From: Bacillus sp. J37
Lineage (GTDB): Bacteria > Bacillota > Bacilli > Bacillales > Bacillaceae
Direction of reading: 5' to 3'
Assembly: GCF_000518865.1 (NCBI RefSeq)
Contig: NZ_JAEK01000040.1
Span: 1 to 47,359, forward strand
Length of the DNA stretch: 47,359 nucleotides
Below are positions 1,351 to 40,685 of this stretch, in pieces. Under the pieces are notes generated by a model. That model was not told the DNA's origin, ran no database searches, and was given only the letters and a program-made list of their open reading frames with translations. Both the position numbers and the translations under genes were made by a program. Numbering within the stretch: position 1 is the stretch's first letter; every line of letters begins with the position of its first letter.

Positions 1351-1378
1351 TATGTCTAAAATAAATAATACGTTTAAA

Positions 1379-1467
1379 CCACAGGGGGAGCCTTTTTGCT
1401 GAGATTGAATGACTTCGATCATTCTAACCCTTTGAACCTGTTAGTTAATACTAGTGTAGGGATGTGG
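1379..1467 (+). promoter_or_regulatory. TPP riboswitch (THI box)
   Basis: The conserved thiamine pyrophosphate aptamer elements appear in order: ACAGGGGGAGC, the GCTGAGA motif, a variable P3 stem-loop (GAATGActtcgaTCATTC), ACCCTTTGAACCTG and TAGTGTAGGGATGTGG. CCACA (1379-1383) and TGTGG (1463-1467) close the P1 helix. It sits directly ahead of thiT, the usual target of this riboswitch, so ligand binding should lower thiamine uptake. Confidence 0.95.
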
Positions 1468-1528
1468 ATGATCATCTATAAATGTAATGTTTGGACTACT
1501 TATGATCATTCCAACCATTGCTTTTTTT
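1466..1528 (+). terminator. riboswitch expression-platform terminator
   Basis: GGATGATCAT (1466-1475) can pair with ATGATCATTCC (1502-1512, one bulged T), followed after nine bases by seven T residues (1522-1528). The 5' arm shares GG with the 3' strand of aptamer helix P1, which would couple ligand binding to hairpin formation. The gap between stem and T-run makes this less certain than the aptamer. Confidence 0.55.
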
Positions 1529-7181: not shown

Positions 7182-7223
7182 GAAAAAGCAGTGTAATCAC
7201 TATCGATCACACTGCTTTTTCTT
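7180..7223. terminator. bidirectional terminator between hemY and the lactonase gene
   Basis: A 15-bp perfect stem (7180-7194 with 7209-7223) containing AAGAAAAAGCAGTGT and its complement. The A and T tracts in the arms provide U-runs on both strands. Confidence 0.9.
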
Positions 7224-8100
7224 ATATGGAGCCTCTGTAAACTTGACCTACCATGCCTTTTTCTTTTGTTTTCACTTTAAAAAGTCCGCCAGCTTGAGGA
7301 TTTAAAGCTAACTCTTCTTCAGTTAAGCCTTGCCTAGCTGTTGTAATAAACAACTCATCTAAATCCTTTCCTCCAAATGTACATGATGTAACATTTGATG
7401 CTGGAACATACACTTCATCTAATTGTTTTCCACTATGGGGATTCCATCGCGTCACCCTGGAACCTCCCCAATGCGCAACCCATATCATTCCTTCCTGATC
7501 AATTGTCATTCCATCCGGGGAACCCATTCCATTTGGGATTTGCACGGCTGTTTCTTTATAAACGATATCTCCTGTTTGTTGATCATAACGATAGGTTGAT
7601 ACTTCACCTGTAGGAGTATCAATGTAGTACATATATTTTTGATCAGGACTCCATGCCAATCCATTTGAAATGGTGACAGGTGAAATCATTCTTTTCAATT
7701 GTCCTTTAAGATCTACACGATATAACGAGCCCATACCTTTTTTAGCACCAACATCCATTGTTCCTATATACAAACGTCCAGAAGGATCACACTTTCCATC
7801 ATTAAACCGATTATGTGGTAAATCCTTTTCCGGATCACCAATTAAGGTCAATTCGTTCGTTTCTAAATCAAAAAGATGGATGCCATTTTGAAGACCTACT
7901 ACCAATCGGCCATCTTCCGCCGGTATGACTGCACCAATATAATGTTCTAACTGAAACGTGTCATTATGATGGTTTTCAGGATTGTAACGATGTAGCTTTT
8001 TACTAATAATATCAATCCAATATAGAACATGTCCGTCCCAATGGGGCCCTTCTCCTAACATTGCCTTTTCGTCAATAACTAGTTCTGCTTGATATGCCAT
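7222..8100 (-). CDS. SMP-30/gluconolactonase/LRE family protein
   Basis: A six-bladed beta-propeller hydrolase, usually a metal-dependent sugar lactonase, here 292 residues and cytoplasmic (no signal peptide). Family landmarks are ML(G)EGPHWD near the start (metal-ligand Glu), HNRFNDGKCDPSGRLYIGTMD (metal-binding Asn and Asp) and SNGLAWSPDQKYMYYIDTP followed by GSPDGMTIDQEGMIWVA.W. The ATG at 8100 has GGGGGAGGAAGT directly upstream; a 7-codon extension would overlap that site. The substrate is not indicated by the neighbours. Confidence 0.92.
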   Translation of the reverse strand: MAYQAELVIDEKAMLGEGPHWDGHVLYWIDIISKKLHRYNPENHHNDTFQLEHYIGAVIPAEDGRLVVGLQNGIHLFDLETNELTLIGDPEKDLPHNRFNDGKCDPSGRLYIGTMDVGAKKGMGSLYRVDLKGQLKRMISPVTISNGLAWSPDQKYMYYIDTPTGEVSTYRYDQQTGDIVYKETAVQIPNGMGSPDGMTIDQEGMIWVAHWGGSRVTRWNPHSGKQLDEVYVPASNVTSCTFGGKDLDELFITTARQGLTEEELALNPQAGGLFKVKTKEKGMVGQVYRGSI

Positions 8101-8163
8101 ACTTCTTCCTCCCCCTCGCATTACCTTTCATCATTCCATAAAAATAACGAGAATCCTTCTTTC

Positions 8164-10014
8164 TTATAATGAAACTGAATCGACTTGGCTGAATTGACTT
8201 TCATATAAGTCCGAATAAAAGCCTCCTGCCGCTAAAAGCTCTTCATGAGTTCCTTTTTCAATAATATTACCTTGATTCATAACTAGAATGAGGTCTGCAT
8301 CCCGAATCGTAGACAAACGGTGCGCAATAACAAAACTTGTTCTACCTTTTAATAGATTGTTCATCGCCTTTTGAATGTTCATTTCTGTTCTTGTATCAAC
8401 ACTGCTCGTTGCTTCATCAAGTATAAGAATTTTTGGATTAGCGATAATTGCTCGAGCAATCGTAAGAAGCTGACGTTGTCCTTGAGAAAAATTTGTCGCA
8501 TCCTCCCCAAGCATCGTGTCATAACCGTCAGGAAGTGTACGAATGAAATCATCTGCATAGGCATTTTTTGCTGCATCTTCAATTTCTTGATCTGTTGCCT
8601 CCTTATTTCCATAAGCAATATTTTCACGTATCGTGCCATAAAATAGCCATGTATCCTGTAAAACCATTGCAAACAAACTTCGAACCTGCTCCCTGCTCAT
8701 ATCTGATAAACTAACACCATCAACCTTTATTGATCCTTTATCTAGCTCATAAAATCGCATTAATAAATTGACAATCGTTGTTTTTCCCGCCCCTGTTGGC
8801 CCAACAATTGCCACTGTCTGGCCTTCATTTACTTCCAGACTAACATCATGAATGATTGGATGGCTTTTATCATATCCGAATTGAATATGTTCGAACTCTA
8901 TATGTCCCCGAAGTGAAGATACTTGAAGTGAAGCATCTTTTTCTTCTTTCTCCTCTTCTTCATCTAATAAAATAAACACGCGCTCAGCAGAAGCAATCGC
9001 AACCTGTATCATATTGGCAATCCCTGCTACCTGTGCCAATGGGTGTGAAATTTGCTGAGTGTATTGAATAAATGCTTGAACATCACCAACACGGATGCTT
9101 CCATTTAATACGAGTAATCCACCAGATATCGCGACAATTATAAATCCCAGGTTTCCGACAAACCCCATTAACGGCATCATGAGACCAGAAATAAATTGGG
9201 CTCTCCAGCTTGAGTCATAAAGTTGATCATTAATTTTATCGAATGTTTCGATCGACTTCTCCTCACGCCCAAATGCTTTTATGACTTGATGTCCCGTGAA
9301 CATTTCTTCTATATGTCCATTTATATTCCCAAGTTCCTCTTGTTGTTTAACGAAATGTTTTTGAGAAAATTTTGTTATAAAACCTGCCACAAATAAACTT
9401 AAAGGAATTGTCACTACTACAACTAAAGTTAGCACTGGGCTTATAACAAGCATCATGATGATAATCCCGAGAATGGAGATAACAGAGTTAATCACTTGTG
9501 TGAGTGCTTGTTGTAATGAGTTGTTGATATTGTCGATATCATTTACAGCTCTACTTAATAAGTCACCATGTGAATGTTGATCAAAATACTTAAGAGGAAG
9601 CCGGGATAATTTCTCATTTACTTCCTTCCTCAATTGAGCAACCGTTCTCTGTGAAATGGACGCCATAACATATTGCTGTAAATACGAAAACAAAGATGAA
9701 AATAAGTATAAACAAATAAGAAGCAACAAAATTCTTGCAATATAGTCAAAATCAACAGATGTTCCCATGCTAAAGCTATCAAATATAGATGAAGTTGCGT
9801 CACCTAAAAGCTTTGGACTAATAACATTGAACAGTGTTGAAAAAATCGCTGCAATCGTGACAACAATCAGGCGGTTTTTCCAAGGCTTTAAGTAACCTAG
9901 CAGTCTTTTAAATGTTTTCTTAAAGTCCTTTGGCTTCTCAGTAGCCATCATTCCATGTCCATGGGGACGACCGCCTCTCATAGGATGTCCTCCGCTTTGG
10001 TTTTTCTCACTCAT
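8164..10014 (-). CDS. yfiC: ABC exporter half-transporter with canonical Walker B (YfiC-like)
   Basis: A 616-residue fusion of a six-helix transmembrane domain (about 30-330) and a nucleotide-binding domain (about 370-605). Visible motifs: Walker A GPTGAGKTT, Q-loop LQDTWLF, signature NFSQGQRQ (degenerate from LSGGQ), Walker B ILILDEATSSVD with the catalytic Glu, and switch His in IAHRLST. A polar His/Gly-rich tail of about 25 residues opens the protein. It overlaps the upstream partner gene by four bases (ATGA), so the two are translationally coupled and should form one heterodimeric drug or lipid exporter. The name follows the B. subtilis YfiB/YfiC pair; the substrate is not known. Confidence 0.9.
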   Translation of the reverse strand: MSEKNQSGGHPMRGGRPHGHGMMATEKPKDFKKTFKRLLGYLKPWKNRLIVVTIAAIFSTLFNVISPKLLGDATSSIFDSFSMGTSVDFDYIARILLLLICLYLFSSLFSYLQQYVMASISQRTVAQLRKEVNEKLSRLPLKYFDQHSHGDLLSRAVNDIDNINNSLQQALTQVINSVISILGIIIMMLVISPVLTLVVVVTIPLSLFVAGFITKFSQKHFVKQQEELGNINGHIEEMFTGHQVIKAFGREEKSIETFDKINDQLYDSSWRAQFISGLMMPLMGFVGNLGFIIVAISGGLLVLNGSIRVGDVQAFIQYTQQISHPLAQVAGIANMIQVAIASAERVFILLDEEEEKEEKDASLQVSSLRGHIEFEHIQFGYDKSHPIIHDVSLEVNEGQTVAIVGPTGAGKTTIVNLLMRFYELDKGSIKVDGVSLSDMSREQVRSLFAMVLQDTWLFYGTIRENIAYGNKEATDQEIEDAAKNAYADDFIRTLPDGYDTMLGEDATNFSQGQRQLLTIARAIIANPKILILDEATSSVDTRTEMNIQKAMNNLLKGRTSFVIAHRLSTIRDADLILVMNQGNIIEKGTHEELLAAGGFYSDLYESQFSQVDSVSL

Positions 10015-11738
10015 GCACTCACCTCCCCATTCTGTTGAGAAGCAACAATTTCCTGATAAATTTTATTAGTTTCCAGCAATTCCGCATGTGTCCCAATACC
10101 TGCAACTTCTCCTTCATTTAACACGATAATTTTCTCAGCATCTTTTACCGTATTCACACGCTGAGCAACAATGATCAATGTCGCTTCAGCTGTTTTAGAT
10201 TTTAGGGCATCTCTTAGGATACGATCTGTTTTATAATCTAAGGCAGAGAAGCTATCGTCAAACAAATAAATTTGAGGTCTTCTGATAAGGGAACGCGCAA
10301 TTGATAACCTTTGCTTTTGTCCGCCCGAAAGGTTTACACCCGCTTGTTCAAGTGTACTATGTATCCCTTTTTCTCTCTTTTCTACAAAGTCAATTGCTTG
10401 TGCGGTTTTTAATGCTTCATAGATTTCCTCTTCGGTTGCATCTTCTTTTCCAAATGCAATATTTTCAAAAATAGTTCCACTAAATAATGTTGCCTTCTGA
10501 GGAACATAACCAATTTTGTTTCGAAGAGTACTTTGCTTCATGTTTTTTATATCCTGCCCATCTATTAAAATCTCTCCACTTTCCACATCATAAAAACGGG
10601 GAATTAACTGAAGAACTGTCGTTTTGCCGGAACCGGTACTTCCTATGATGGCTGTGGTTTCTCCTGGCATCGCAGTAAAAGAGATTTTTTTAAGGACAGG
10701 CTTTTCCGCCCCTTCATAACGAAACGTCACATCTTTAAATTCAATCCTCCCATGATTTTGTTCAGGTAACATTTCTTGGACTGGATCTGTTATCATCGGT
10801 TTCGCCTGTAATACTTCACTTAAACGTTTAGCGGAAACTTGTGCACGCGGAATCATAATGAAGGCCATTGATAACATAATAAGCGACATTAAAATCATGG
10901 CTGCATATTGAATAAATGCCAGTAAATTCCCTACCTGCATTTCTCCTTGATCGATCCTATTCGCGCCAAACCACACAATCGCAATATTGGTAAAGTTCAT
11001 GATGATCAACATAATCGGAAACATAAACGCCATTAGCTTACCAACTTTAATTCCAGTATCTCGAAAATCATCATTCGCTTGGTTAAAGCGTGTTCTTTCA
11101 TGCTCAACACGGTTAAAAGCCCGAACAACACGAACTCCTGTTAGCGCTTCCCTTAAAATCAGTGTTAAACGATCTGTTTTCTTTTGCATAGCCGAAAATA
11201 ACGGAATCGCTTTTCGGGCCACAATAAAAATAACAAGCGCCAAGATAGGTAAAGCAACCAGAAATACAAGTGATAATGTACGATCACGAGACACCGCCAA
11301 AATCACTCCACCAACTAACATTAACGGTGCCCTTGTCATCATTCTCTGCATCATATTAATCACATCCTGAACAACCTTCACATCATTTGTTGTTCTCGTA
11401 ATAAGTGATGCAGAACCAAACTTTTCATATTCCTCAAGAGAGAAATGCTCAATATGAACGAATAAATGTCTTCTCATATCACGACCAAACCCAAGTGATA
11501 CCTTTGAAGCAAAATAACTTACCCCTACCATTAAAATAATCGCCATAAGAGAGCAAACTAACATCCATCCCCCGGTTTGCAGAATAAAAGATACATCAGA
11601 GTTGACGATTCCTACGTCTACAATCTCAGCCATCAAAGTTGGCAAATAAAGCTCAAATAGTATTGCAACTAACGAAAACAAAAGAACAAGAAAAAGCTGC
11701 TTTCTATAAGGCTTTAAATATTTTATCATTTCTATCAT
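10011..11738 (-). CDS. yfiB: ABC exporter half-transporter with degenerate Walker B (YfiB-like)
   Basis: A 575-residue partner of the previous gene, with six membrane helices followed by a nucleotide-binding domain: Walker A GSTGSGKTT, signature NLSGGQKQ (canonical), Walker B IYLFDDSFSALD, where Asp replaces the catalytic Glu, and VAQR in place of the switch-His AHR. Together with the degenerate signature of its partner this gives one canonical and one degenerate ATP site, the hallmark of asymmetric heterodimeric exporters such as BmrCD and TM287/288. Start ATG at 11738 follows GAGGTGACCGA. Likely first gene of a two-gene operon. Confidence 0.9.
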   Translation of the reverse strand: MIEMIKYLKPYRKQLFLVLLFSLVAILFELYLPTLMAEIVDVGIVNSDVSFILQTGGWMLVCSLMAIILMVGVSYFASKVSLGFGRDMRRHLFVHIEHFSLEEYEKFGSASLITRTTNDVKVVQDVINMMQRMMTRAPLMLVGGVILAVSRDRTLSLVFLVALPILALVIFIVARKAIPLFSAMQKKTDRLTLILREALTGVRVVRAFNRVEHERTRFNQANDDFRDTGIKVGKLMAFMFPIMLIIMNFTNIAIVWFGANRIDQGEMQVGNLLAFIQYAAMILMSLIMLSMAFIMIPRAQVSAKRLSEVLQAKPMITDPVQEMLPEQNHGRIEFKDVTFRYEGAEKPVLKKISFTAMPGETTAIIGSTGSGKTTVLQLIPRFYDVESGEILIDGQDIKNMKQSTLRNKIGYVPQKATLFSGTIFENIAFGKEDATEEEIYEALKTAQAIDFVEKREKGIHSTLEQAGVNLSGGQKQRLSIARSLIRRPQIYLFDDSFSALDYKTDRILRDALKSKTAEATLIIVAQRVNTVKDAEKIIVLNEGEVAGIGTHAELLETNKIYQEIVASQQNGEVSA

Positions 11739-29736: not shown

Positions 29737-30303
29737 TTGAGTCAACTATTTACACAACCTGCATTATTGGTCTTAGATGTTCAAAAGGGGTTTGATGATC
29801 CCTATTGGGGAAAACGCAATAATGTACAAGCTGAAAATAATATTCAAACTTTACTAACTGAATGGAGAAAACGAGACTGGACAATCATTTATTCACAGCA
29901 TTTATCACTTGATCCCCAATCTCCACTTTATTACAAAAATGCCAACCAAACAGAATTTATGGACATTGTAAGTCCACTTCCAGGTGAAATGATCATGCAA
30001 AAGAATGTAAATAGCGCCTTTATAGGAACTCAATTAGAAAGCTATTTAAAAAGCTATCAAATCAATTCTGTCGTTATTACAGGATTATCCACACAGCATT
30101 GTGTCTCAACGACAACAAGAATGAGCAGCAACCTTGGGTTCCAAACATTCCTTGTCTCTGATGCCACTGCTGCCTTTGAAATAACAGACCACACTGGGAA
30201 ACGTCATACTCCAGAGGATATTCATCAATTTGAGCTCGCTACGTTACATAAAGAATTTGCAACGATTTTAAATACAAATGAAGTGATCACGCAACTTAGC
30301 TAA
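29737..30303 (+). CDS. cysteine hydrolase (isochorismatase-like)
   Basis: A 188-residue isochorismatase-fold hydrolase. The catalytic triad is visible: Asp in ALLVLDVQKGF, Lys in MQKNVNSAF and Cys in STQHCVSTTTR. The core also has GLSTQHCV and LVSDATAAFE, as in nicotinamidase-like amidohydrolases. The substrate is unknown; no nicotinamide-specific metal motif (DxHxxxxxxH) is obvious, since SQHLSLDPQSP stands in that position. The start is TTG, with AAGGAAGGGA upstream. Confidence 0.9.
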   Translation: MSQLFTQPALLVLDVQKGFDDPYWGKRNNVQAENNIQTLLTEWRKRDWTIIYSQHLSLDPQSPLYYKNANQTEFMDIVSPLPGEMIMQKNVNSAFIGTQLESYLKSYQINSVVITGLSTQHCVSTTTRMSSNLGFQTFLVSDATAAFEITDHTGKRHTPEDIHQFELATLHKEFATILNTNEVITQLS

Positions 30304-30360: not shown

Positions 30361-31281
30361 CTACATATGATTTCTTACCACTGACCTCCTCGCTGAAAAA
30401 ATGTTACGTAAAGTCTGAAAGTTGATCAAGATAATACCAAAAATAATCGTTACAGCTCCTAAACCAGTGACAATTGAAAAATGTTCATCATATAGGAAAA
30501 ACCCTAAAGCCAATGCAATGATCGGTGATATATAAAGCCATGTTGATGGAAATACCGGGTTTGTTTTTGAAACGAGCCAATAGTATAAGCTATGTCCTAT
30601 CATTGACCCTGCAATAATTAAATAGATAAGAGATCCAGCAGATTCTGGTTGAAAAAATGCACTAATTTGAATATCTTCTATGAAACTTGCTAATACGAGT
30701 AATAGGACTCCGCCATACATCATTTGAACAGCGTTTAACGCAATGGGAGAAGCTTCTTTATATCTTTCTGTTACTTTTCTCGTGTAAATTGTACCTGCAG
30801 CATAACAAACTTCTCCAATTAAAATGGCTACACAGCCAGCCAGCCAAAAAGTGCTCATATCCATTGAAAGAGTTTCTTGCACAAGCAATAATACCCCTAT
30901 AATCCCTATAGCACATCCGAACACAGAATATAATGTCGCTTTTTGTCTTAACAGAAAACGTTGAATAAAAATAATCATCATCGGTCCTGTAGCTGATAAA
31001 ACCGCCGCTATTCCGGAGGTTACATATTGCTCAGCCCAATATAATGTTGAAAAAGTCCCAAAAGTCAAACCAACACCTGAGAAAAACAGTTCTTTTCGAA
31101 ATAATAATTGAAATAAGCCCTTATTTCTCATAATCATAAAACTAAAGATGAAAAAACCAGCCAGAAAAAACCGGACTCCTCCCGAAAAAAACGGTGTTAA
31201 ACCTGAATCAATGCCAATCTTAATGGCTAAAAAAGTTGTTCCAAAAATGAAGCACATAAAACAAAAATTAATAAAGATCAT
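30361..31281 (-). CDS. EamA-family exporter, divergent from a MocR regulator
   Basis: A 306-residue protein with ten hydrophobic segments in two EamA repeats. The family motifs GTTFLAIKIGIDSG, GIAAVLSATGPMMIIFIQRFLLRQK and TNPVFPSTWLYISPIIALALGFFLYDEHF close the two halves. Start ATG follows GAGGAGGAGAATGAA. It is transcribed away from a MocR-type regulator gene with a shared 112-bp intergenic region that holds repeated operator-like boxes. In Firmicutes this pairing usually means that the MocR protein controls the exporter in response to an amino compound. Confidence 0.9.
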   Translation of the reverse strand: MIFINFCFMCFIFGTTFLAIKIGIDSGLTPFFSGGVRFFLAGFFIFSFMIMRNKGLFQLLFRKELFFSGVGLTFGTFSTLYWAEQYVTSGIAAVLSATGPMMIIFIQRFLLRQKATLYSVFGCAIGIIGVLLLVQETLSMDMSTFWLAGCVAILIGEVCYAAGTIYTRKVTERYKEASPIALNAVQMMYGGVLLLVLASFIEDIQISAFFQPESAGSLIYLIIAGSMIGHSLYYWLVSKTNPVFPSTWLYISPIIALALGFFLYDEHFSIVTGLGAVTIIFGIILINFQTLRNIFSARRSVVRNHM

Positions 31282-31393: not shown

Positions 31394-32797
31394 GTGGAAA
31401 AAACAAAGGATAAACAGGATTATTTATTTAAACAAGTATATGAGTATGTCTTAAATCACATTGAACGTAATGAATGGAAAAAGGATGATAAACTCCCTTC
31501 TGTCAGGAGCTTAGCAGATCAGCTGAATGTTCATCGCCTAACGGTCTTAAGGGCATATCAGCTACTGAAACAACATAATAAAGTATATGTGAAGGATAAA
31601 TCAGGATATTTCGTTAGATCAGAACAGTCGGTGAATCCTGCTAATACCGAACTCCCAATTATTTCAGCCTATAATCAAAAAAATCACTTGTCTGATATAC
31701 ATCAGCATCAAGTAGAATATAATTTTTCTCAAGCACTTATTGACCCCAACTTATTGCCAAATCAATTTCTATCAGATTATGTAAAAAAAGTATTTGATTT
31801 ACACCCTAAAGTACTTGCAACATATTCAACTGTACAAGGTGACGCTGAACTAAGAGAGTTATTGTCTCTTTACTTTGGAAAGCAATATAAAACTCCTCTT
31901 CATATGGATGATTTATTAATTACATCCGGTTCTCAGCAAGCGATTCACTTAATCTCTGAAACTTTTGTTAAACCTAGAGACACAGTTTTACTCGAAAGAC
32001 CAAGCTATAGTGCAGCAATTGATGTATTCAAAGCTCGTGGGGCAAATATTGCAACCATTGATATTAGCCAGAATGGTTATGATTTAGATCAGGTTGAAAG
32101 GCAGATGAAACTTTTTAAGCCTCGCCTATTTTATCTGAATCCTACCTTTCATAATCCAACTGGTATAACAATTCCTCCAGAGCAACGAAAACAACTGGTG
32201 GATTTAGCTGAAAAATATAAATGCCTGCTCGTTGAAGATGATGCATACTATGATACTTACTTTGATCAACGTCCCCCACTACCAATATATACATATGATA
32301 CAGCTGGTATCGTCATTTATGTTCGAAGCTTTTGTAAATATATCTCTCCCGGGTTGCGGGTTGCATCAATCATCTGTCAATCACAGGCTACAATGAAGTC
32401 GTTATTATCATCTAAATCACTAACAGATAACGGTTCACCACTTTTAAACCAGAAAATTTTTCTGCACTATTTTTCTTCATTGCGACTACAACAACATTTA
32501 GAAAAATTAAGAATAGCTTTACAAATTCGCAAGGAAATCATGGAAGAAGAGTTGGCTGCAACGAATTGGAAATGGCAAAGCCCAGATGGTGGATTAAATT
32601 TATGGATTGAACTGCCTAATGGAGTTTCCACGCAGGAATTGTACACAAAGGCAATTGAAAACGACATTTCCTTTGTACCCGGAGCTGTTTGTGATCCATT
32701 ACAAGAGTCAACATCATTTGTCCGGTTGAGTTATTCCTATGTAAATGAAAAGCAGATTCGAGAAGGGATTAGAAGATTAGTGGATATAACAAAATGA
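31394..32797 (+). CDS. MocR/PdxR-type regulator (GntR HTH fused to aminotransferase domain)
   Basis: A 467-residue fusion protein. The GntR-type winged helix (about 8-75) has KLPSVRSLADQLNVHRLTVLRAYQLLKQ; the class I aminotransferase-like domain (about 95-465) has LLITSGSQQAIHLI, LNPTFHNPTG, LVEDDAYYDTYF and VRSFCKYISPGLRVA, where the Lys of SFCK should bind PLP. Such proteins sense amino acids, amines or PLP and do not act as free aminotransferases. GTG start at 31394 follows GGGAGGG. Divergent from the EamA gene, its likely target. Confidence 0.93.
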   Translation: MEKTKDKQDYLFKQVYEYVLNHIERNEWKKDDKLPSVRSLADQLNVHRLTVLRAYQLLKQHNKVYVKDKSGYFVRSEQSVNPANTELPIISAYNQKNHLSDIHQHQVEYNFSQALIDPNLLPNQFLSDYVKKVFDLHPKVLATYSTVQGDAELRELLSLYFGKQYKTPLHMDDLLITSGSQQAIHLISETFVKPRDTVLLERPSYSAAIDVFKARGANIATIDISQNGYDLDQVERQMKLFKPRLFYLNPTFHNPTGITIPPEQRKQLVDLAEKYKCLLVEDDAYYDTYFDQRPPLPIYTYDTAGIVIYVRSFCKYISPGLRVASIICQSQATMKSLLSSKSLTDNGSPLLNQKIFLHYFSSLRLQQHLEKLRIALQIRKEIMEEELAATNWKWQSPDGGLNLWIELPNGVSTQELYTKAIENDISFVPGAVCDPLQESTSFVRLSYSYVNEKQIREGIRRLVDITK

Positions 32798-32843: not shown

Positions 32844-32877
32844 AAGAGGCCCTTTAAGCAGGAAAGGCCTCTTTTTA
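32844..32877. terminator. bidirectional terminator between mocR and the deaminase operon
   Basis: AAGAGGCC (32844-32851) pairs with GGCCTCTT (32866-32873), then TTT; it can also end the convergent minus-strand operon. Confidence 0.85.
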
Positions 32878-32888
32878 GACGCATATCA

Positions 32889-34151
32889 TCAAGTCAAAGA
32901 GATTAAAGAATCCTTATACCAAATCGGTTCAGAAGGTTTCGTTTCCACAATTAGATGTCCATCTCGAATCACATAGCGACAAGCAGGCTGTTTACTCAGC
33001 ATATCAACGACATTATCAACCGGGAGTATAATCATGTTTGCCCTATTACCAACTTCAATCCCATAGTGATCCTTTATTCCAAATGCTTTTGCTCCATTTT
33101 TCGTAATCATATTGATTATATCAACTCTTTCAGCCTCACCTGACATATGAGCTAAATGTGCCCCCATATGTGCTGCTTGTAAAATATTTCCGTTACCGAA
33201 AGGATAAAAAGGTGTTTGTATATCATCGTGGGCAATACATACATTCACATCCGCTTCATTTAATTCCTTTATTCTTGTAATTCCTCTTCCTTTAGGATAT
33301 GAATCGAAACGTCCCTGCATCGTGCAATTTATCAAAGGACACGATACAACCGTCATATCTGCTTTTTTCACAAGTGAAATGACTTTAGCTGCATGGCTAT
33401 CAGAATAGTAAGCCATTGCATTGGCATGGCTTACTGTCACTCTTTTTCCCATTCCTTTACTTATCGCCAAATCTGCTATGACTTCTAAAAAACGTGAGTG
33501 CTCATCATCCACTTCATCTGAAAAAATGTGGACAAATGAACCATAATGTTCCGCAATTGCAAAACACTCTTGTATTGACTTAATACCATTTTCACGGGTA
33601 TGTTCAAGATGAGGGACAGCACTAACCGCATCTGCTCCTAGATGAACAGCTTCAACCAAACGATCTTTATTCTTAGGAGATGAAATAATTCCTTCTTGTG
33701 GAAAGGCAATAATCTGGATATCAATTGTATGTTGTAATTTTGCTCGAAGTGAAATGATTGCTTTTAGAGCTGTTAATTCAGAATCAGATATATCAACCGC
33801 TGCACGCACATAAAGAATACCGTGTTGAATTAGTAGTTTAATCGCTTTTTCTGCTCGTTCAAGCACATCCTCATAAGTCAGCTTAGCTTTACGCTCCTGC
33901 CACAGCTCGATTCCTTCCATTAATGTTCCTGATAGATTTTTTAAATCTTTTCCTGATGTTAGCACAGTATCTAAATGGGTATGCATTTCAACAAAAGGCG
34001 GGAGGGCAATTCCTCCACCTGCCTCCCACTCTATTTCTCCATGAATGACATCCTCTGTCATTCTTGCAATCTTTCCATTTTTAATACCAATATGAAACAG
34101 TGAACTTTGTTCTAGTAATCTTACATTCTTAATAACTGTTTCATATACCAT
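32889..34151 (-). CDS. CodA-like amidohydrolase 2 (cytosine-deaminase family, altered metal site)
   Basis: A 420-residue amidohydrolase that follows E. coli cytosine deaminase closely along its length: EMHTHLDTV (HxH metal motif), GKRVTVSHANAM, NCTMQGRFDSYPKGRGITRIKEL, VNVCIAHDDIQTPFYPFGNGNILQ (the HDD metal Asp) and GNRANMIILP. At the position of CodA His214 (VHCDEIDDE in CodA) it reads IFSDEVDDE, so Phe replaces a conserved metal-binding His while the catalytic Glu is kept. Start ATG 34151, after GGAGGGAGAGAAG, overlaps the upstream gene by 11 bases. Last gene of the seven-gene operon. Substrate unknown; N-heterocycle deamination or ring opening is expected from the family. Confidence 0.85.
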   Translation of the reverse strand: MVYETVIKNVRLLEQSSLFHIGIKNGKIARMTEDVIHGEIEWEAGGGIALPPFVEMHTHLDTVLTSGKDLKNLSGTLMEGIELWQERKAKLTYEDVLERAEKAIKLLIQHGILYVRAAVDISDSELTALKAIISLRAKLQHTIDIQIIAFPQEGIISSPKNKDRLVEAVHLGADAVSAVPHLEHTRENGIKSIQECFAIAEHYGSFVHIFSDEVDDEHSRFLEVIADLAISKGMGKRVTVSHANAMAYYSDSHAAKVISLVKKADMTVVSCPLINCTMQGRFDSYPKGRGITRIKELNEADVNVCIAHDDIQTPFYPFGNGNILQAAHMGAHLAHMSGEAERVDIINMITKNGAKAFGIKDHYGIEVGNRANMIILPVDNVVDMLSKQPACRYVIRDGHLIVETKPSEPIWYKDSLISLT

Positions 34152-35490
34152 CTTCTCTCCCTCCAACACCTACAGCTTTTTCTGATATAAGAAATTGAGT
34201 CTCTGATGTTGTTCCGCTCACCCATCTTCCCTTATGATAAACGAAACGAGATGGAGAAAGATTTGCAAATAATTGATACATGTCTCTCCCTTCTAAAAGT
34301 ACAAAGCTCGCATTTACCTTTTCCTGCACACCATGATTTTTCAGTCCATAAATTCCTGCAGGGGTCTCCGTCATCATCTTCATCACATGCTGAAGTTCAC
34401 TTTCACTTCCTAAATGAGCAGTATAGGCTGTTAATAGACCAATTTGTAGTAAATCACATCTTCCAAAAGGATGAAATGGATCATTTACATTATCTGAGGC
34501 TGTTGCGATTTCAACCCCACCGTTTAGGAATTCCTTTACTCTCGTAATGCCTCTTCGTATAACTCCTCTATCATGTCTTCCTTGCAGATACATATTTGCA
34601 CCCGGTAATGTAACAGCTCCTATTTTAGTACCAGCCATCTCTTCTATTATAGTTGCAGCTCGTTTTTCATTCATTGCTGATAATGAACATAGATGACCTG
34701 CAACCACTTTTCCTTGATAATTGTATTCCTTCGTTTTTTCTATGATATGTTCAATCGTACATATAGAAGGATCATCCTGTTCATCAACATGCAGGTCAAT
34801 AAATTTACCGAATTTCTCTGCCAACTGAAAGATGAAATCAATGTCTTCCATTGAATTTGGGGATAAATGTGGTGCTCCACCAATTCCGTCCACTCCGAAG
34901 GATACCGCCTCTTCTATTATATCTATTTGTTTTTTAGGACGGGATGATAGATAAGAAAACATAGGTACAACTTGTATTGATATGATTGAACGTAACTCTT
35001 CCCTCACCTCTAAAACAGCCTGTAGGTGACTAAGTGCTAACTTTTCATTCATATCCAATTCAAAATTCACATGTGTTCTAATATGAGTTGTTCCATAAGA
35101 TAAAGATTGAAGCGCTGCTTTTCTTACTCTCGCTTTGATCTCATGTTCTGAAAAAGATGCTGCCTTTTCACTATAATTTCTTATCGCCTCCTGCAGGGTG
35201 CCAGACCTATTAGGTACAGAAGTTAATGAAAATGCCTTATCCAGATGTGTATGGATATCAATAAAAGAAGGAAGAAGAAATCTTCCCTCAACATCAATGG
35301 CATTTTGTTCAGTTACATCACTTATGCTTAATTTCGATATTTTTGCACCATGTAGCAGCCGAGCAGAATCAGTTTGCTTTTGAATTGTTTCGTAAACACC
35401 ATTTTTAATCGTTATAGAAAATAATTGGCCTATTGAATCCTGTGGTAAACGTACATTATACAGGTGTAATTCTTCTTGGTTATCTCTCAT
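34141..35490 (-). CDS. CodA-like amidohydrolase 1 (cytosine-deaminase family)
   Basis: A 449-residue amidohydrolase with complete metal-site motifs: DIHTHLDKAF (HxH), FIDLHVDEQDDP (metal His and catalytic Glu), VVAGHLCSLSAM (metal His) and VEIATASDNVNDPFHPFGRCDLL (metal Asp). The middle segment (MYLQGRHDRGVIRRGITRVKEFL) is also CodA-like. It is more divergent than the next gene but looks fully active. Start ATG 35490 sits two bases after the stop of the substrate-binding protein gene, with GGAG in that gene's end; a 17-codon in-frame extension upstream overlaps that gene and lacks a site. Substrate unknown. Confidence 0.87.
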   Translation of the reverse strand: MRDNQEELHLYNVRLPQDSIGQLFSITIKNGVYETIQKQTDSARLLHGAKISKLSISDVTEQNAIDVEGRFLLPSFIDIHTHLDKAFSLTSVPNRSGTLQEAIRNYSEKAASFSEHEIKARVRKAALQSLSYGTTHIRTHVNFELDMNEKLALSHLQAVLEVREELRSIISIQVVPMFSYLSSRPKKQIDIIEEAVSFGVDGIGGAPHLSPNSMEDIDFIFQLAEKFGKFIDLHVDEQDDPSICTIEHIIEKTKEYNYQGKVVAGHLCSLSAMNEKRAATIIEEMAGTKIGAVTLPGANMYLQGRHDRGVIRRGITRVKEFLNGGVEIATASDNVNDPFHPFGRCDLLQIGLLTAYTAHLGSESELQHVMKMMTETPAGIYGLKNHGVQEKVNASFVLLEGRDMYQLFANLSPSRFVYHKGRWVSGTTSETQFLISEKAVGVGGREDGI

Positions 35491-35491
35491 G

Positions 35492-36520
35492 TTATTGCTC
35501 CAGGAATTCCGTTGTAAAGGCTTTAGTAACATCAACTTCATTCTTTATAATGCCTAATTGTAATAGCTCCTCCTGAAGCATGCCCCAACGCTCTTCAGAC
35601 ATATACCCAAATCCATGCTCTTCAGCGTCTCCGCCAAAGATTAGTTCTTCTTCTGCTTTCGCTCCATATTCCATTTTCTCTAATGTTAATTCAGGGTTCG
35701 CTTCCTTAATATATGGATTCACATCTGCCCAGTTATCTCGATAGAATTCCCACCCCTTAACAGTTGCATCCATAAACGCCTGCACAAGCTCTGGGTTTTC
35801 TTTTATTACTTTTTCTGTAGTAAAAATAATGTTTGCATACGTTTCAAATCCTGAATCATGAATAAAGAGATAATCATTATTAACTCCTTGCTCATCTAAT
35901 GAATATGGTTCAGATGTTACATAACCTTGTGTAACAGCATTCTCATCTTCAATAAATGTTGCGAGAGAACCAGTATATGACATTTCCTTTACTTCAGTGA
36001 GATCATATGCGGATTTGATATATTCCCAATATCCGCTTCCCGGAGCTGTATAAACTGTTTTACCATCAAGATCTTCAAAATCAGCCACAGTTCCTTCATG
36101 AGTAATTAATACTTGAGGGCTTTTTTGAAAGATAGCTCCGATTGCTACAAGAGGGATTCCTTTGTCACGAGCAATTAATAGATCTTCCGCTTGAGTATAT
36201 CCAAATTGAGCTTCACCTGATGCAACAATTTGGGTAGCTGAAACTTGGGGACCACCAGGCTCAATCGTCATCTCCAATCCTTCTTCCTTATAAAAACCTT
36301 GCTGTAATGCTGCGTAGTTTCCTCCATGCTCAGGTTGTGCAAACCAATTTGTTACGAGTTTTGCCTCACCTAATTCTTTGCTTTCACTTGCTTTCGCTTT
36401 CTCTTCACTATCAGAATTAGTACTAGAACTAGAAGATTCTGTGCTGCCACAGGCCGCTAGAAGGAATAGAGACAAAATACTAATCAACACACCAATCTTA
36501 GCCATTACTTTCCTTTTCAT
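35492..36520 (-). CDS. NMT1/THI5-like ABC substrate-binding lipoprotein
   Basis: A 342-residue lipoprotein: a signal peptide with lipobox LLAAC (Cys at about 24), a Ser/Glu-rich linker, then a type II periplasmic-binding fold of the NMT1/THI5/SsuA group (LVTNWFAQPEHGGNYAALQQGFYKEEGL..., GGPQVSATQIVASGEAQFGYTQAEDLLIARDKG). Members of this group bind sulfonates, nitrate, or pyrimidines such as thiamine precursors; the WFAQPEHGG opening recalls the pyrimidine-binding ThiY side, and CodA-like neighbours fit a heterocyclic ligand. ATG follows AGGGGGTTATACG. It completes an importer with the permease and ATPase of the same operon. Confidence 0.92.
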   Translation of the reverse strand: MKRKVMAKIGVLISILSLFLLAACGSTESSSSSTNSDSEEKAKASESKELGEAKLVTNWFAQPEHGGNYAALQQGFYKEEGLEMTIEPGGPQVSATQIVASGEAQFGYTQAEDLLIARDKGIPLVAIGAIFQKSPQVLITHEGTVADFEDLDGKTVYTAPGSGYWEYIKSAYDLTEVKEMSYTGSLATFIEDENAVTQGYVTSEPYSLDEQGVNNDYLFIHDSGFETYANIIFTTEKVIKENPELVQAFMDATVKGWEFYRDNWADVNPYIKEANPELTLEKMEYGAKAEEELIFGGDAEEHGFGYMSEERWGMLQEELLQLGIIKNEVDVTKAFTTEFLEQ

Positions 36521-36544
36521 CGTATAACCCCCTGCATAATCGGT

Positions 36545-37387
36545 TTAGTTTTGTTTTTTCATTTCTGATTCATGCCAAGACCCTAGCAACAGCTTTGAAA
36601 TCAAGTTCACAATGAGGAAAAAGACGATACCCAAGATGGCAGCTGAAATTCCACAGGCAAATAGATAAGCTGTCTCTAACCTGGAGGAGGCAACAGTAAT
36701 GGCATAACCGATTCCGCCGGCACCGCCTCCAATACCGGCAATATATTCTCCAACAATTGCCCCAATAACTGCTAATGTACAAGATATCTTCAAACCTGCC
36801 ATTATATAAGGTAATGCAGCTGGTATACGAACCTTCCACATTATTTGCCATTTAGAAGCTTGATAGAGTTTGAGCAAGTGTATCATTCCACTGTTAGTAG
36901 AATTCAGGCCAATTAATGTATTAGATAGCATGGGAAAAAATCCAATCGTAAATGCTATAATAACGATCGCATTCATACCTGAACCAAACCAAATGACAAT
37001 GATCGGAGCAATCGCCACAATAGGAATGGTTTGTAATAGAATGGCATAAGGATATAAACTTTTCTCCAATAACTTAGAACTTGCCATAATAATAGCTCCT
37101 AAAACACCACCTACTACACTAAACACAAATCCAACAACAGCTTCTGTAATCGTCGTTAAGACAGCTGTGCTTAGATTTTCCCAATTGCTCACTGCAGCTT
37201 GAACGATATCACTTGGCTTTGGTAATAAATAGGTAGGAATTTGAAGAATCTGTGCTCCAAATTGCCAAAAAGAAAGAAATAAAACAAATACAACGACTGG
37301 AGGTATAATATTATTTGGAATATTCAGTTTTTTACCCTTACTCTTCTTCAAAGGTACACTAGAAACCTCTAGTTGAGTATGTTCCAT
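36545..37387 (-). CDS. ABC permease (SsuC/TauC/ThiX type)
   Basis: A 280-residue permease with about six membrane helices and the BPD_transp_1 coupling loop (HLLKLYQASKWQIMWKVRIPAALPYIMAGLKIS, with the EAA-like motif). The N-terminal 25 residues are cytoplasmic and basic. The opening IPTYLLPKPSDI is typical of SsuC/TauC and related pyrimidine importers. ATG follows AAAGGAGGTTATTTTC. It lies directly after the FAD-oxidase gene and before the binding-protein gene. Confidence 0.93.
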   Translation of the reverse strand: MEHTQLEVSSVPLKKSKGKKLNIPNNIIPPVVVFVLFLSFWQFGAQILQIPTYLLPKPSDIVQAAVSNWENLSTAVLTTITEAVVGFVFSVVGGVLGAIIMASSKLLEKSLYPYAILLQTIPIVAIAPIIVIWFGSGMNAIVIIAFTIGFFPMLSNTLIGLNSTNSGMIHLLKLYQASKWQIMWKVRIPAALPYIMAGLKISCTLAVIGAIVGEYIAGIGGGAGGIGYAITVASSRLETAYLFACGISAAILGIVFFLIVNLISKLLLGSWHESEMKKQN

Positions 37388-37404
37388 GAAAATAACCTCC
37401 TTTT

Positions 37405-38739
37405 CTATTGAACTATTTCTTTATTACTTGGAATTTTCCCGGGATTCAATAAATTGAAAGGATCATTTTTCTTTTTCATTTTTTCTATTTCTTTCATTCT
37501 TAAATTATAACCTCCAAATCCCAGCAGATAAGTATGGGGATTATTAATTTGGACCCCTACACTTTCGAAGTAGTTTATAATTTCATTTAACCTTTCTTCT
37601 GATTGATAAATGAGCACCGGAAGAGAGGCGGGAGTAATCTCACCCTTAATCTTAATAAACTCAAAATGAAATTGTACTTCATAGCCATATTTCATACGAA
37701 TCGCATCCATTTGCTCAAATATCCTATTCTTTTCAAATCTAGCTTGTAAATAGGTGATATTCTCACCATGTTTATGTGCCCATAATGTGGCATGGTTCCA
37801 AGTGAAATCAGAAAGTTTCAACCCTTTTTGGTAGTTTTCAACAGGTATTTTAAACGTTATTTCTCCATGATATTCTTTAGCAAGCTGCTCTAATTTCTCT
37901 TCTGCTCCTTCCTCAATTTCCAACATAACGATCGATTTCCCATCTTGAAGGAATTTCTTTAAACCTGGGAAATGGGACGGAATTGGCCATTCACAAACTG
38001 ACACTAATCGTTTAATAATCGCTTCATTATGTGCAAGGGCATCACTAAACTCAACAGCCTTTTGAAATTCTTCAAATGAAACAATATGCTGAGCCCAATC
38101 TGTTTTCGGTTCAATAAATAAAGCCGCCTCTACAACAATGCCTGTTGTTCCGTAGTTATGGATATATGTCTCCATTTCCTCGCCGCTTACTGTTAGTAGT
38201 TGTGGCTCCTCTTCAATGGTCATAACAGTAATAGATTGTATATTACCATCCCATAAATTGCCCCATCTAATAGACCCAATACCTCCTGATCCTCCACATA
38301 AAAATCCTCCTACTGTCGCTTTCATATAGGTACTAGGGTAAATTCTTAATTCCTTTCCTTGTTGTCGCAGGTTTTTTTCTAATACACCAAGCTTCACTCC
38401 TGCTTGAACATGTGCAGTAGCTTCTCTTATCTCTATGATATGATCAAGCTTTGTTACATCTAAAACAATCCCTCCCTCCATTGGTATGGCCTGACCGTAA
38501 TTACCAGTTCCTGCTCCCCTAACTGTAATAGGAACACGATTCTTCACGGCAAAAGCAACAATCTTTTCTACTTCATCAATTGATTCCGGCTGAACGGCAC
38601 AATCTGCTCGTTTTTCTTTTAATTGTTGATAAAGTACTGGGGAATACCAATAATAGTCTTTTGATAATCGTTCTTTAACAGCTTCTGAGATTAATACCTT
38701 TTCTTCTCCTATAAATTCAATTAACTGTTCAATCCACAT
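37405..38739 (-). CDS. FAD-binding (PCMH/VAO-type) oxidase or dehydrogenase
   Basis: A 444-residue soluble flavoprotein of the FAD_binding_4 family (GlcD/VAO type). The FAD-binding part has FAVKNRVPITVRGAGTGNYGQAI, GGIVLDVTKLDHI, ATVGGFLCGGSGGIGSIRWGN and YGTTGIVVEAAL. The C-terminal PFNLLNPGKIPSN is the usual end motif. It should oxidise a hydroxy or amine group of the imported compound, with O2 or a quinone as acceptor. There is no HxxxC double flavin attachment that I can see. ATG follows AAAAGGAGGGAAAAC. Its place inside an importer operon, between the ATPase and permease genes, ties it to the same substrate. Confidence 0.9.
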   Translation of the reverse strand: MWIEQLIEFIGEEKVLISEAVKERLSKDYYWYSPVLYQQLKEKRADCAVQPESIDEVEKIVAFAVKNRVPITVRGAGTGNYGQAIPMEGGIVLDVTKLDHIIEIREATAHVQAGVKLGVLEKNLRQQGKELRIYPSTYMKATVGGFLCGGSGGIGSIRWGNLWDGNIQSITVMTIEEEPQLLTVSGEEMETYIHNYGTTGIVVEAALFIEPKTDWAQHIVSFEEFQKAVEFSDALAHNEAIIKRLVSVCEWPIPSHFPGLKKFLQDGKSIVMLEIEEGAEEKLEQLAKEYHGEITFKIPVENYQKGLKLSDFTWNHATLWAHKHGENITYLQARFEKNRIFEQMDAIRMKYGYEVQFHFEFIKIKGEITPASLPVLIYQSEERLNEIINYFESVGVQINNPHTYLLGFGGYNLRMKEIEKMKKKNDPFNLLNPGKIPSNKEIVQ

Positions 38740-38753
38740 AGTTTTCCCTCCTT

Positions 38754-39563
38754 TTAAAACTTTAAGTCTTGTGATACTTTTGCTGCAATATCACTAAATT
38801 GATGTGATGTTCTAATGTCTTCATTCCGCGGAAATGGGAGGGGGACCTCTACTACAGATTCAACTTTTCCAGGACTAGGTGTCATAACCGCAATGTTTGT
38901 TGATAAATACACAGCTTCAAACACATTATGAGTAATAAATAAGACTGTCATCTTTTCGTTCTCCCAAATTCTTAGGAGTTCTGATTGTAAGTTTTGCCTA
39001 GTAATCTCATCCAGGGCCCCGAATGGTTCGTCCATTAATAATAATTTCGGTTTTGACACAAGCGCCCTTGCAATTGAAACACGCATTTTCATTCCACCCG
39101 AAAGTTCTCGAGGTAGCGCCTTTGTATATTCTGATAATCCAACCATTTTAAGGACATGGTGAGCTTTCTCAAGCTTTTCCTGCTTTGTTACATTTCTAAA
39201 TTCTAAGGGAAGCATGACATTTTCTACTACAGAGCGCCACGGTAAAAGAGTAGGCTCTTGAAAAACAAATGACACATCTGTGCTTTGTTGTCTTGCTATT
39301 GCTGGTGTTGTCCCAAGGATCTCCAGTTTTCCTACAGAATGCTCAATAATCCCGGAAATCATATTAAATATTGTCGATTTCCCACAACCGGAAGGACCAA
39401 CAAATGATATAAATTCCCCTTCCTCAATCTCTAAACTAACGTTTTGAACAGCTGTTTTTCCATTTGGGTATACTTTGCTCACATTTTCCATAAAAACAAC
39501 TGGACGTTCTTGATTATGTTGCTTTGGTTTTGTTAATGTAGGCATTTCCTGCTTCAACACCAT
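38754..39563 (-). CDS. ABC ATPase (SsuB/TauB/ThiZ type)
   Basis: A 269-residue ATPase with Walker A GPSGCGKST, Q-loop FVFQEPTLLPWRSV, signature RELSGGMKMRVSIARAL, Walker B LLLMDEPFGALD and switch His in FITHNVFEAVYLS. The TLLPWRSVVENV stretch is typical of the nitrate/sulfonate/pyrimidine importer group. ATG 39563 follows AGAGGGGGAG, eight bases after the stop of the creatininase gene. Confidence 0.95.
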   Translation of the reverse strand: MVLKQEMPTLTKPKQHNQERPVVFMENVSKVYPNGKTAVQNVSLEIEEGEFISFVGPSGCGKSTIFNMISGIIEHSVGKLEILGTTPAIARQQSTDVSFVFQEPTLLPWRSVVENVMLPLEFRNVTKQEKLEKAHHVLKMVGLSEYTKALPRELSGGMKMRVSIARALVSKPKLLLMDEPFGALDEITRQNLQSELLRIWENEKMTVLFITHNVFEAVYLSTNIAVMTPSPGKVESVVEVPLPFPRNEDIRTSHQFSDIAAKVSQDLKF

Positions 39564-39571
39564 CTCCCCCT

Positions 39572-40396
39572 CTACTGTTTCACCATTTTATTTGTTAACA
39601 TATCAATATCAAAGTTGCGCATTTCTCTTAATGCTTCAGCAATTGATTCAGAAACATATCGATTAATCTCCATCCCTTTCTCTATGGTAGCTTGTGTTGC
39701 ATCTCCTGCAACTCCTGTAGTAGAAATATCATTGATCACCCAAGCAAAATAGCTGGTTCCTTTTAAATAAAGATGCTTTGTATCCTCTGGCAATGTTACA
39801 AACTCAGCAGGAGATTTATCAGGGTGAACCCAGTTATTTTTAAAGTCCAGGACCATAGAAGTCTCCACATCTCCCCCATGAATGCCAAATTTTTGTTCAC
39901 GCTCAGTGATGAGGTCATTTGTTTTCGACGAACCAGGATTTAATCGGAACACCATCATTCCTGTCTCAATTCTAATTTCTCTCGAAATCATATTTAATAA
40001 ATCATGATTTCCGCCATGTGTATTAAATAAGAGTAGTCTTTTAAATCCACTTGCATGAACACTTTTCGCTATATCCGTGACAACAGCTTGTAAGGTAGCA
40101 GCAGATAATGTCATCGTACCTGCCATTCCTAGGTGCTCAGTACTCTTTCCATACGGCAATGGCGGCAAGACCCAGATATTAGCTTCCTCATCCAGCAATT
40201 CTAATGCCTTATTTAACAACCCTTCTCCAATCAAAGTATCCGTGTAAATTGGTAAATGAGGGCCATGCTGTTCAATCGCTCCAATAGGTAGTATGATCAA
40301 TGCATCTTCCTTACTCAATTCCTTCACTTCCTCTGTTGTTAAACGAGGGAGAAACCTCTTTTCAAACGCAATTCCCTTATACCTTTCATTCAGCAT
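39572..40396 (-). CDS. creatininase-family amidohydrolase
   Basis: A 274-residue protein of the creatinine amidohydrolase family, with the metal and catalytic motifs LPIGAIEQHGPHLPIYTDT (Glu, His, Asp ligands), LLFNTHGGNHDLL and GIHGGDVETSMVL (metal His, Asp and Glu). Family members open small rings or deformylate pyrimidines (for example creatininase, and the FAPy deformylase ArfB). ATG 40396 has AAAGG nine bases upstream; earlier in-frame TTG and ATG codons are too close to that site. It is the first gene of the seven-gene operon and so the first to be translated. Confidence 0.9.
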   Translation of the reverse strand: MLNERYKGIAFEKRFLPRLTTEEVKELSKEDALIILPIGAIEQHGPHLPIYTDTLIGEGLLNKALELLDEEANIWVLPPLPYGKSTEHLGMAGTMTLSAATLQAVVTDIAKSVHASGFKRLLLFNTHGGNHDLLNMISREIRIETGMMVFRLNPGSSKTNDLITEREQKFGIHGGDVETSMVLDFKNNWVHPDKSPAEFVTLPEDTKHLYLKGTSYFAWVINDISTTGVAGDATQATIEKGMEINRYVSESIAEALREMRNFDIDMLTNKMVKQ

Positions 40397-40685
40397 CACC
40401 ATCAACCTTTCAATTAGGATTTTACATTCAGGAAATCACTTTCTGATTTGATTGTTATATTTTCTAACAAACATAACACTGTATATATCTTGAATTCTAA
40501 AAAAGACCTAGGATACGTTAAGAAATGTAACATCTGTCCTCATTTTATTATAAATTTCTCTAATAATCATTGACGTATCTATTAAAAAGAAGAAATCCTT
40601 TTGTTCGAACTAACTAAAAATTCAGACTTCTTGTTAGATTATATGACATTGAACATCGATATTTATTCATAATTGAATGCAGAAC
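40397..40685. other. upstream region of the seven-gene operon
   Basis: About 290 bases with no gene. On the minus strand two TATAAT-type boxes are present (for example 40643-40638), but neither has a good -35. A TTCGAACAAAA stretch near 40610 shares only the CGAAC core with a PurR box. An 11-codon ORF here lacks a ribosome binding site. I see no riboswitch and no clear operator. Confidence 0.4.

Follow-up and report, generated by a model that had tools for sequence, protein, structure and literature searches.

Organization of the operon

The stretch of DNA analyzed here, referred to as the window, comprises 47,359 nucleotides from Bacillus sp. J37 and corresponds to contig C29 (NZ_JAEK01000040.1) of a 5.3-Mb genome that is 99.99% complete. 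Its subject of interest is a group of seven minus-strand genes at positions 32889-40396, which are a real and conserved set and make up a probably nitrogen-regulated operon for the uptake and breakdown of a nitrogen-containing heterocycle. The features of the locus, from the upstream end, are as follows.

40632-40648, no strand assigned: distal TnrA/GlnR-type operator, a perfect match to TGTNANAWWWTNTNACA, which we take to be the 17-base TnrA/GlnR operator consensus
40453-40469, no strand assigned: proximal TnrA/GlnR-type operator, also a perfect match, 56 bases from the start codon at 40396
39572-40396, minus: CRN, a creatininase-fold amidohydrolase that is not a true creatininase (Pfam Creatininase, PF02633)
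38754-39563, minus: ABC importer ATPase of the SsuB/TauB/NtrD type (Pfam ABC_tran)
37405-38739, minus: flavin adenine dinucleotide (FAD) oxidase/dehydrogenase (Pfam FAD_binding_4), a full-length relative of PDB 6v42/6v43
36545-37387, minus: ABC importer permease (Pfam BPD_transp_1)
35492-36520, minus: NMT1/THI5-like substrate-binding lipoprotein (substrate-binding protein, SBP; Pfam NMT1)
34141-35490, minus: AH2, a CodA/AtzC-like amidohydrolase with a conserved metal site, kept in the set across phyla (Pfam Amidohydro_1/3)
32889-34169, minus: AH1, a CodA-fold amidohydrolase with an altered metal site, found only in Bacillaceae among the loci examined (Pfam Amidohydro_3)
32844-32873, minus: weak terminator-like hairpin 3' of the last gene

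Each of the seven genes is an intact open frame, and all seven proteins score above the curated Pfam cut-offs. The genes are spaced by gaps of 8, 14, 17, 24 and 1 bases, followed by an overlap of the final two (the AH2 frame opens at 35541, with Met18 at 35490 taken as the likelier start). These frames and coordinates agree with an initial annotation of the DNA, which had described one contiguous minus-strand unit with gaps of 1-24 bases or overlaps. Both TnrA/GlnR-type boxes, which that annotation did not mention, are located in a gap of roughly 330 bases ahead of CRN. The hairpin downstream of AH1 is weak evidence for a terminator because the window contains 4 such hairpins when 4.2 are expected.

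Properties of the encoded proteins

CRN, which the initial annotation called a creatininase, scores 98.7 bits against the NCBIfam creatininase model TIGR04448, below the cut-off of 235. The metal ligands of creatininase are Glu34, His36, Asp45, His120 and Glu122, the last of which presumably lies in the HYEN motif. Residues E45, H47, D56 and H130 of CRN are kept in 86 of 86 aligned copies, and HGGN is found in place of HYEN. With its score below the cut-off and one ligand missing, the name creatininase is not sustained. For the solved relatives of the FAD enzyme, 6v42 and 6v43, no paper was found in the literature searched.

The two amidohydrolases differ in their metal sites. The AlphaFold model of AH1 (predicted local distance difference test score 89.7) has the CodA fold, its best structural match being 3o7u with a template modeling (TM) score of 0.89 and 45% identity to Escherichia coli CodA in the structural alignment; against the cytosine deaminase model NF006685 it scores 473.7 bits, below the NCBIfam cut-off of 483. 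The metal ligands of CodA are given as His62, His64, His215 and Asp314 in PMC6186785. In all 8 AH1 copies Phe216 stands in place of the third metal-ligand His; a His occurs two positions before it, and the other three ligands are retained. The view that both CodA-like proteins are ordinary deaminases is thus not supported for AH1. The ligands of AH2 are conserved (H97 and H99 in 83 of 84 aligned copies, H251 and D350 in all 84), and its best NCBIfam cytosine deaminase score is 250.2 bits, below the cut-off of 403. Another CodA-like gene of this genome (G000:C2:63685-64770, locus L002) is 34% identical to AH2.

The importer had been described as an NMT1/SsuABC-type system. The NMT1-type SBP, ATPase and permease are all present, which upholds the first part of this description; the SsuA part fails, since the SBP scores only 42.8 bits against the SsuA family (cut-off 163.5) and its fold belongs to the THI5/ThiY branch, nearer than SsuA. 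Its closest solved relatives in both sequence and fold are the thiamin-bound 4nmy and 3ix1, which binds N-formyl-aminomethylpyrimidine (FAMP).

Conservation of the gene set

A species-genome collection was scanned with the FAD protein; it yielded 96 relatives, and the 80 best of these were retained as 79 loci. The FAD, CRN, ATPase, permease and AH2 genes occur jointly in 68 of these 79 genome loci, and 7 of the 11 loci without the full five-gene set are shorter than 15 kb. Counted singly, CRN is present in 73 loci, the ATPase in 72, AH2 in 71 and the permease in 70; an SBP was recognized in only 45, which we attribute to divergence of the actinobacterial SBPs. Among 72,556 plasmid records the FAD gene is found in 141, 109 of them from Rhizobium, and the same five genes are present in 10 of the 13 plasmid loci opened, which were hand-picked for variety rather than at random. 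The initial annotation had called for such a genome search and made co-conservation a condition of its reading, and co-conservation is found; the set is not confined to this genome but spans Bacillota, Actinomycetota and Pseudomonadota. Because gene order differs between these phyla, it is apparently selection, not recent descent of a single block, that keeps the genes together.

Within the window's own family, the FAD gene was detected at an E value of 1e-50 or better in 6 of 80 genomes, the window genome counted, and so is an accessory gene there. The window FAD protein is 97% identical to that of Metabacillus niabensis and 96% identical to that of an M. halosaccharovorans record, which places the window in Metabacillus or close to it. 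AH1 has a much narrower distribution, being present in 5 of the 79 genome loci, none of the 13 plasmid loci, and two further loci, L107 and L108 (L numbers denote individual loci), all of them from Bacillaceae. Membership varies in other ways as well: L107 has AH1 and lacks AH2 in the set, and L088 has neither CodA-like gene. In L010 (Halalkalibacter wakoensis, 6901-11340) the FAD gene is broken into two overlapping frames, and beside the set lies a gene with an arylformamidase match of 64.9 bits, below the cut-off of 223. Literature searches, which fell short of most subscription journals, gave no description of a pathway using the whole set among the papers listed, in line with the initial annotation.

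Probable nitrogen-control boxes upstream of the operon

The two boxes upstream of CRN are the only perfect matches to the operator pattern in the whole window, where 0.04 are expected. Allowing one mismatch gave zero additional sites in the window when 1.33 are expected by chance, so that only the perfect match is informative. The 5.3-Mb genome contains 14 perfect sites (palindromic, both strands) compared to 1 for the reversed pattern, and another TnrA/GlnR-type site of the genome is found in front of its xanthine dehydrogenase operon (L109). Among related loci, two perfect sites precede the set in each of L004 and L007, and L005 has three sites with one mismatch. Since the window's only two perfect boxes are positioned upstream of the first gene, the operon is probably under nitrogen-limitation control through TnrA/GlnR-type boxes, as judged from these sequences.

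Other regulatory elements were also considered. Searching the window with the PucR-box consensus as we know it gave nothing convincing upstream of the operon, only a site with two mismatches; matches with one mismatch are found upstream of the set in L004, L005 and L007. A MocR-type regulator gene at 31394-32797 (plus; best model PdxR, 293 bits against a cut-off of 320) has a convergent orientation relative to the operon and a divergent one relative to an EamA exporter gene at 30361-31281 (minus). We rejected it as the operon regulator on the basis of this orientation and its distribution, L004 sharing the neighbor and L005, L006, L107 and L108 not.

Purine genes and hydroxylases near related sets

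Neighboring genes were counted in 94 loci (the 79 genome loci, the 13 plasmid loci, L107 and L108) and in 18 control stretches from 9 of the same genomes. The strict purine genes counted were xanthine dehydrogenase (PucD type), XdhC, uricase, allantoinase and PucG; the case loci themselves supplied the queries, except that those for Klebsiella were taken from L096, a locus overlapping a case locus, and the thresholds were of our choosing. At least one strict purine gene was found in the flanks of 32 of the 94 loci compared to 0 of the 18 controls (Fisher p 0.0015, uncorrected for relatedness), and at least two kinds in 20 of the 94. The case loci are mostly from Actinomycetota, and the controls guard against chance, not against shared ancestry. 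The initial annotation, made from the one sequence, had not included this purine context of the relatives.

A direct physical association is found in the two Halobacillus loci, L006 and L062. Here the set is located directly 3' of genes for an XdhC-like protein (below the NCBIfam cut-offs), a nucleotidyltransferase-like protein and three xanthine dehydrogenase subunits, and is followed by an allantoinase gene (544.9 bits, cut-off 357.85) and a PucG-like aminotransferase gene; the nucleotidyltransferase, xanthine dehydrogenase subunit and PucG names are ones we assume from our own recognition of the sequences. A different association is found in Klebsiella L086 and Rahnella L093, where an operon with SBP and amidohydrolase genes, preceded by the xanthine riboswitch RF03054 (63.4 and 61.8 bits, respectively; gathering threshold 36), is oriented divergently from the set. 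The riboswitch is absent from the third enterobacterial locus opened, Pantoea L087. The Klebsiella amidohydrolase matches PRK12393 at 822 bits (cut-off 543), and a 2-oxoglutarate/iron-dependent (2OG-Fe) oxygenase gene follows these genes in L086. In Yu and Breaker (2020; PMC7373994), PRK12393 is named among the genes linked to xanthine riboswitches, and the precise functions of the riboswitch-linked dioxygenases are described as not established.

Several classes of hydroxylase were encountered near the set. A PucD-type xanthine dehydrogenase is present in 5 of the 94 loci and a PaoC-type gene in two more; genes annotated as aldehyde oxidase PaoABC occur near the set in L084 and L095. A VanA-type Rieske oxygenase gene with a same-strand upstream reductase gene lies upstream of the set in L005 (5640-7746) and L108 (13029-15425), the latter group also having a called ferredoxin gene. 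A VanB-type reductase is found in 61 of the 94 loci, with no partner oxygenase identified for these reductases, and a 2OG-Fe oxygenase in 7. Rid-family genes occur in 13 of the 94 loci, each of these 13 being proteobacterial. Xanthine dehydrogenase and the 2OG-Fe enzyme XanA act on hypoxanthine or xanthine. HpxDE is a Rieske system that does the job of xanthine dehydrogenase on these same compounds, according to PMC7373994. Because all three classes are thus known for hydroxylation of hypoxanthine or xanthine, we take the mixture of classes near the set as support for a purine-type ring. Simple replacement of uricase by the set was rejected, since 14 of 22 genomes with the set, the window genome among them, carry uricase as well.

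Two further neighbors were noted in L020, L056 and other Microbacterium loci. One is a small gene, present near the set in 8 of the 94 loci, which we take by eye to encode a formimino-tetrahydrofolate cyclodeaminase-type domain and which has no NCBIfam match at 1e-15; the other is a gene like that for methylenetetrahydrofolate reductase, in 26 of the 94 loci. Together these hint at one-carbon release.

Proposed function and alternatives

The claim that the operon serves uptake and breakdown of an N-heterocycle is supported by the conserved set and by the THI5/ThiY-type SBP. Our best guess at the substrate is a purine-type base, the class with the most support, with thiamine-type pyrimidines as its main rival. 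Cytokinins, methylpurines, pterins and compounds of the divicine type were weighed as candidates on chemical grounds alone. The explanation as a whole, a nitrogen-scavenging unit most likely acting on a purine-type base, we consider to stand at about an even chance. Shortage of nitrogen would turn the operon on through TnrA/GlnR-type control, as the two operators suggest. The SBP, ATPase and permease would then import a flat amino- or oxo-substituted N-heteroaromatic base, most likely of the purine type and perhaps modified or hydroxylated. AH2, together with AH1 in Bacillaceae, would strip off exocyclic amino groups or cleave an amide bond; the product of these CodA-like hydrolases would be oxidized by the FAD enzyme, and CRN would hydrolyze the resulting ring or amide, so that ammonia and small fragments could enter central metabolism or the ureide pathway. 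A ring-hydroxylase component (xanthine dehydrogenase, Rieske/VanB or 2OG-Fe type) accompanies the set in many relatives, and a RidA-type imine hydrolase is usual in proteobacterial versions. The initial annotation had read an order of steps from the order of the genes, which is unsupported, as gene order alone cannot show steps.

A bolder proposal, which we regard as possible but rather doubtful, is that the set represents an undescribed and widespread aerobic pathway of purine-type breakdown. An FAD_binding_4 oxidase and a hydrolase of the creatininase fold would act beside the uricase route and sometimes replace it; ring hydroxylases that can substitute for one another (xanthine dehydrogenase, Rieske, 2OG-Fe) and a dedicated ABC importer of the NMT1 type would serve this pathway, and nitrogen or xanthine, depending on the phylum, would control it.

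A number of observations weigh against a purine-type substrate or against nitrogen scavenging as a joint function. The nearest solved relatives of the SBP bind thiamin or its pyrimidine and not purines. No strict purine gene is present in the flanks of 62 of the 94 loci, among them all 13 plasmid loci and the non-Halobacillus Bacillaceae loci L004, L005, L007, L010, L107 and L108, which include those most like the window (L004, L005, L007 and L108). The purine-positive loci are not independent, 30 of the 32 being from Actinomycetota and the other 2 from Halobacillus, and the Halobacillus loci have zero TnrA-type boxes upstream of the set. A riboswitch scan of the window gave no xanthine (RF03054) or other purine riboswitch, and only 2 of 14 related loci scanned have RF03054 (L086 and L093). 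The hydroxylase classes near the set also act on many other compounds. All 22 of the set-bearing genomes tested carry xanthine dehydrogenase-type genes, a count that says little because such genes are common, also occurring in 5 of 14 control genomes; this genome has an apparent canonical purine (puc) pathway on other contigs, C91 and C95. Finally, nitrogen-scavenging genes may cluster without having a common substrate.

Degradation of the pyrimidine half of thiamine (hydroxymethylpyrimidine or FAMP) is unlikely, although it deserves to be taken seriously. It would involve ThiY-like import, deformylation by CRN, action of the FAD enzyme as an oxidase on an aminomethyl or hydroxymethyl group, and deamination by the CodA-like enzymes. 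ArfB provides a precedent for a creatininase-fold deformylase, the SBP is closest to proteins that bind thiamin and FAMP, and the PaoABC-annotated genes near the set in L084 and L095 would suit a sequence from alcohol to aldehyde to acid. However, the sole thiamine pyrophosphate (TPP) riboswitch of the window (1374-1479, plus; 62.6 bits) is far from the operon, none was found in the 14 related loci scanned, and the informative neighbors are purine genes, thiamine genes not having been counted systematically.

The use of a pyrimidine base (cytosine, 5-methylcytosine, isocytosine or an oxidized derivative) as nitrogen source is distinctly improbable. The near-threshold score of AH1 and its identity to CodA would fit such a base, as would the CodA-like nature of AH2; against this, AH1 lacks a CodA metal ligand in every copy, its occurrence in so few loci means that it cannot define the common substrate, and the described pyrimidine pathways are not known to require a creatininase-fold enzyme. 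We attach only slight probability to a nitrogen-responsive island in which the amidohydrolases and the oxidase act on separate substrates with no joint pathway: the varying membership (AH2 absent in L107 and L088, AH1 absent outside Bacillaceae) is what it would predict, but CRN, the FAD enzyme, ATPase, permease and AH2 occurring together in differing orders across phyla is hard to explain without a joint substrate. Creatinine degradation by a creatinine deaminase, a creatininase-type hydrolase and an FAD oxidase is very improbable, for although CRN has the creatininase fold and creatinine deaminases occur in the cytosine deaminase family, CRN falls far below the creatininase cut-off with HGGN for HYEN, the SBP is of the THI5/ThiY branch, and profile searches of the seven proteins found neither creatinase nor a sarcosine gene, consistent with the earlier statement that creatinase is missing.

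A nitrogen-scavenging role for the set would have wider relevance. Relatives of the FAD enzyme occur in at least 96 genome stretches and 141 plasmid records, with neighbors that in most opened loci are labeled 'creatininase', 'cytosine deaminase' and 'nitrate/sulfonate binding protein'; these loci may form one unrecognized nitrogen-scavenging pathway of soil, plant, marine and enteric bacteria. The function of the set would likewise be relevant to the uncharacterized genes adjoining xanthine riboswitches. Ready targets are the SBP for ligand screening, the FAD enzyme with its solved relative 6v42, and the CodA-like enzyme with an altered metal site.

Other features of the window

The TPP riboswitch precedes a gene for a thiamine energy-coupling factor (ECF) transporter (Thia_YuaJ, 1588-2154). 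A partial 16S rRNA gene is located at the contig end (1-182, minus; 139.3 bits). An isochorismatase-family hydrolase gene near the operon (29737-30303, plus) scores 60.5 bits against a biuret amidohydrolase model, below the cut-off of 370, and could be part of nitrogen scavenging.

Comparison with known systems

The Bacillus puc regulon resembles the operon in having a TnrA/GlnR-type box, found before the xanthine dehydrogenase operon as before this one, and the set is physically joined to purine genes in Halobacillus L006 and L062; however, the seven genes are not known as members of the puc pathway, and in this genome they are on a separate contig. The ThiXYZ-YlmB-TenA thiamin salvage system shares an NMT1/THI5-like importer, an SBP of the ThiY/THI5 branch and an amide hydrolase. 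It differs in that the operon has no TPP riboswitch and no TenA, the absence of which, noted initially, was confirmed by profile searches of the seven proteins, and in that the FAD oxidase and CodA-like enzymes are additional. Rid-family proteins, which recur in proteobacterial versions of the set, recall the Rut pyrimidine pathway, whereas the operon has no RutA/B/D/G-type gene and uses another importer and another oxidase.

In the reductive uric acid cluster, a purine ring is likewise opened by hydrolases, but the enzymes used there (PMC12507026) are XdhD, YgfK and YgeX, in place of which the set has an FAD_binding_4 oxidase and a creatininase-fold enzyme. Proteobacterial genes associated with the xanthine riboswitch (NMT1 RNA) differ in that no such riboswitch precedes the window operon, and the main text of PMC7373994 contains neither 'creatinin' nor 'FAD'. 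They share with the set and its neighbors, according to that source, NMT1-type SBPs, 8-oxoguanine-deaminase-like amidohydrolases, and Rieske and 2OG-Fe oxygenases, and in Klebsiella and Rahnella they are directly divergent from the conserved set itself.

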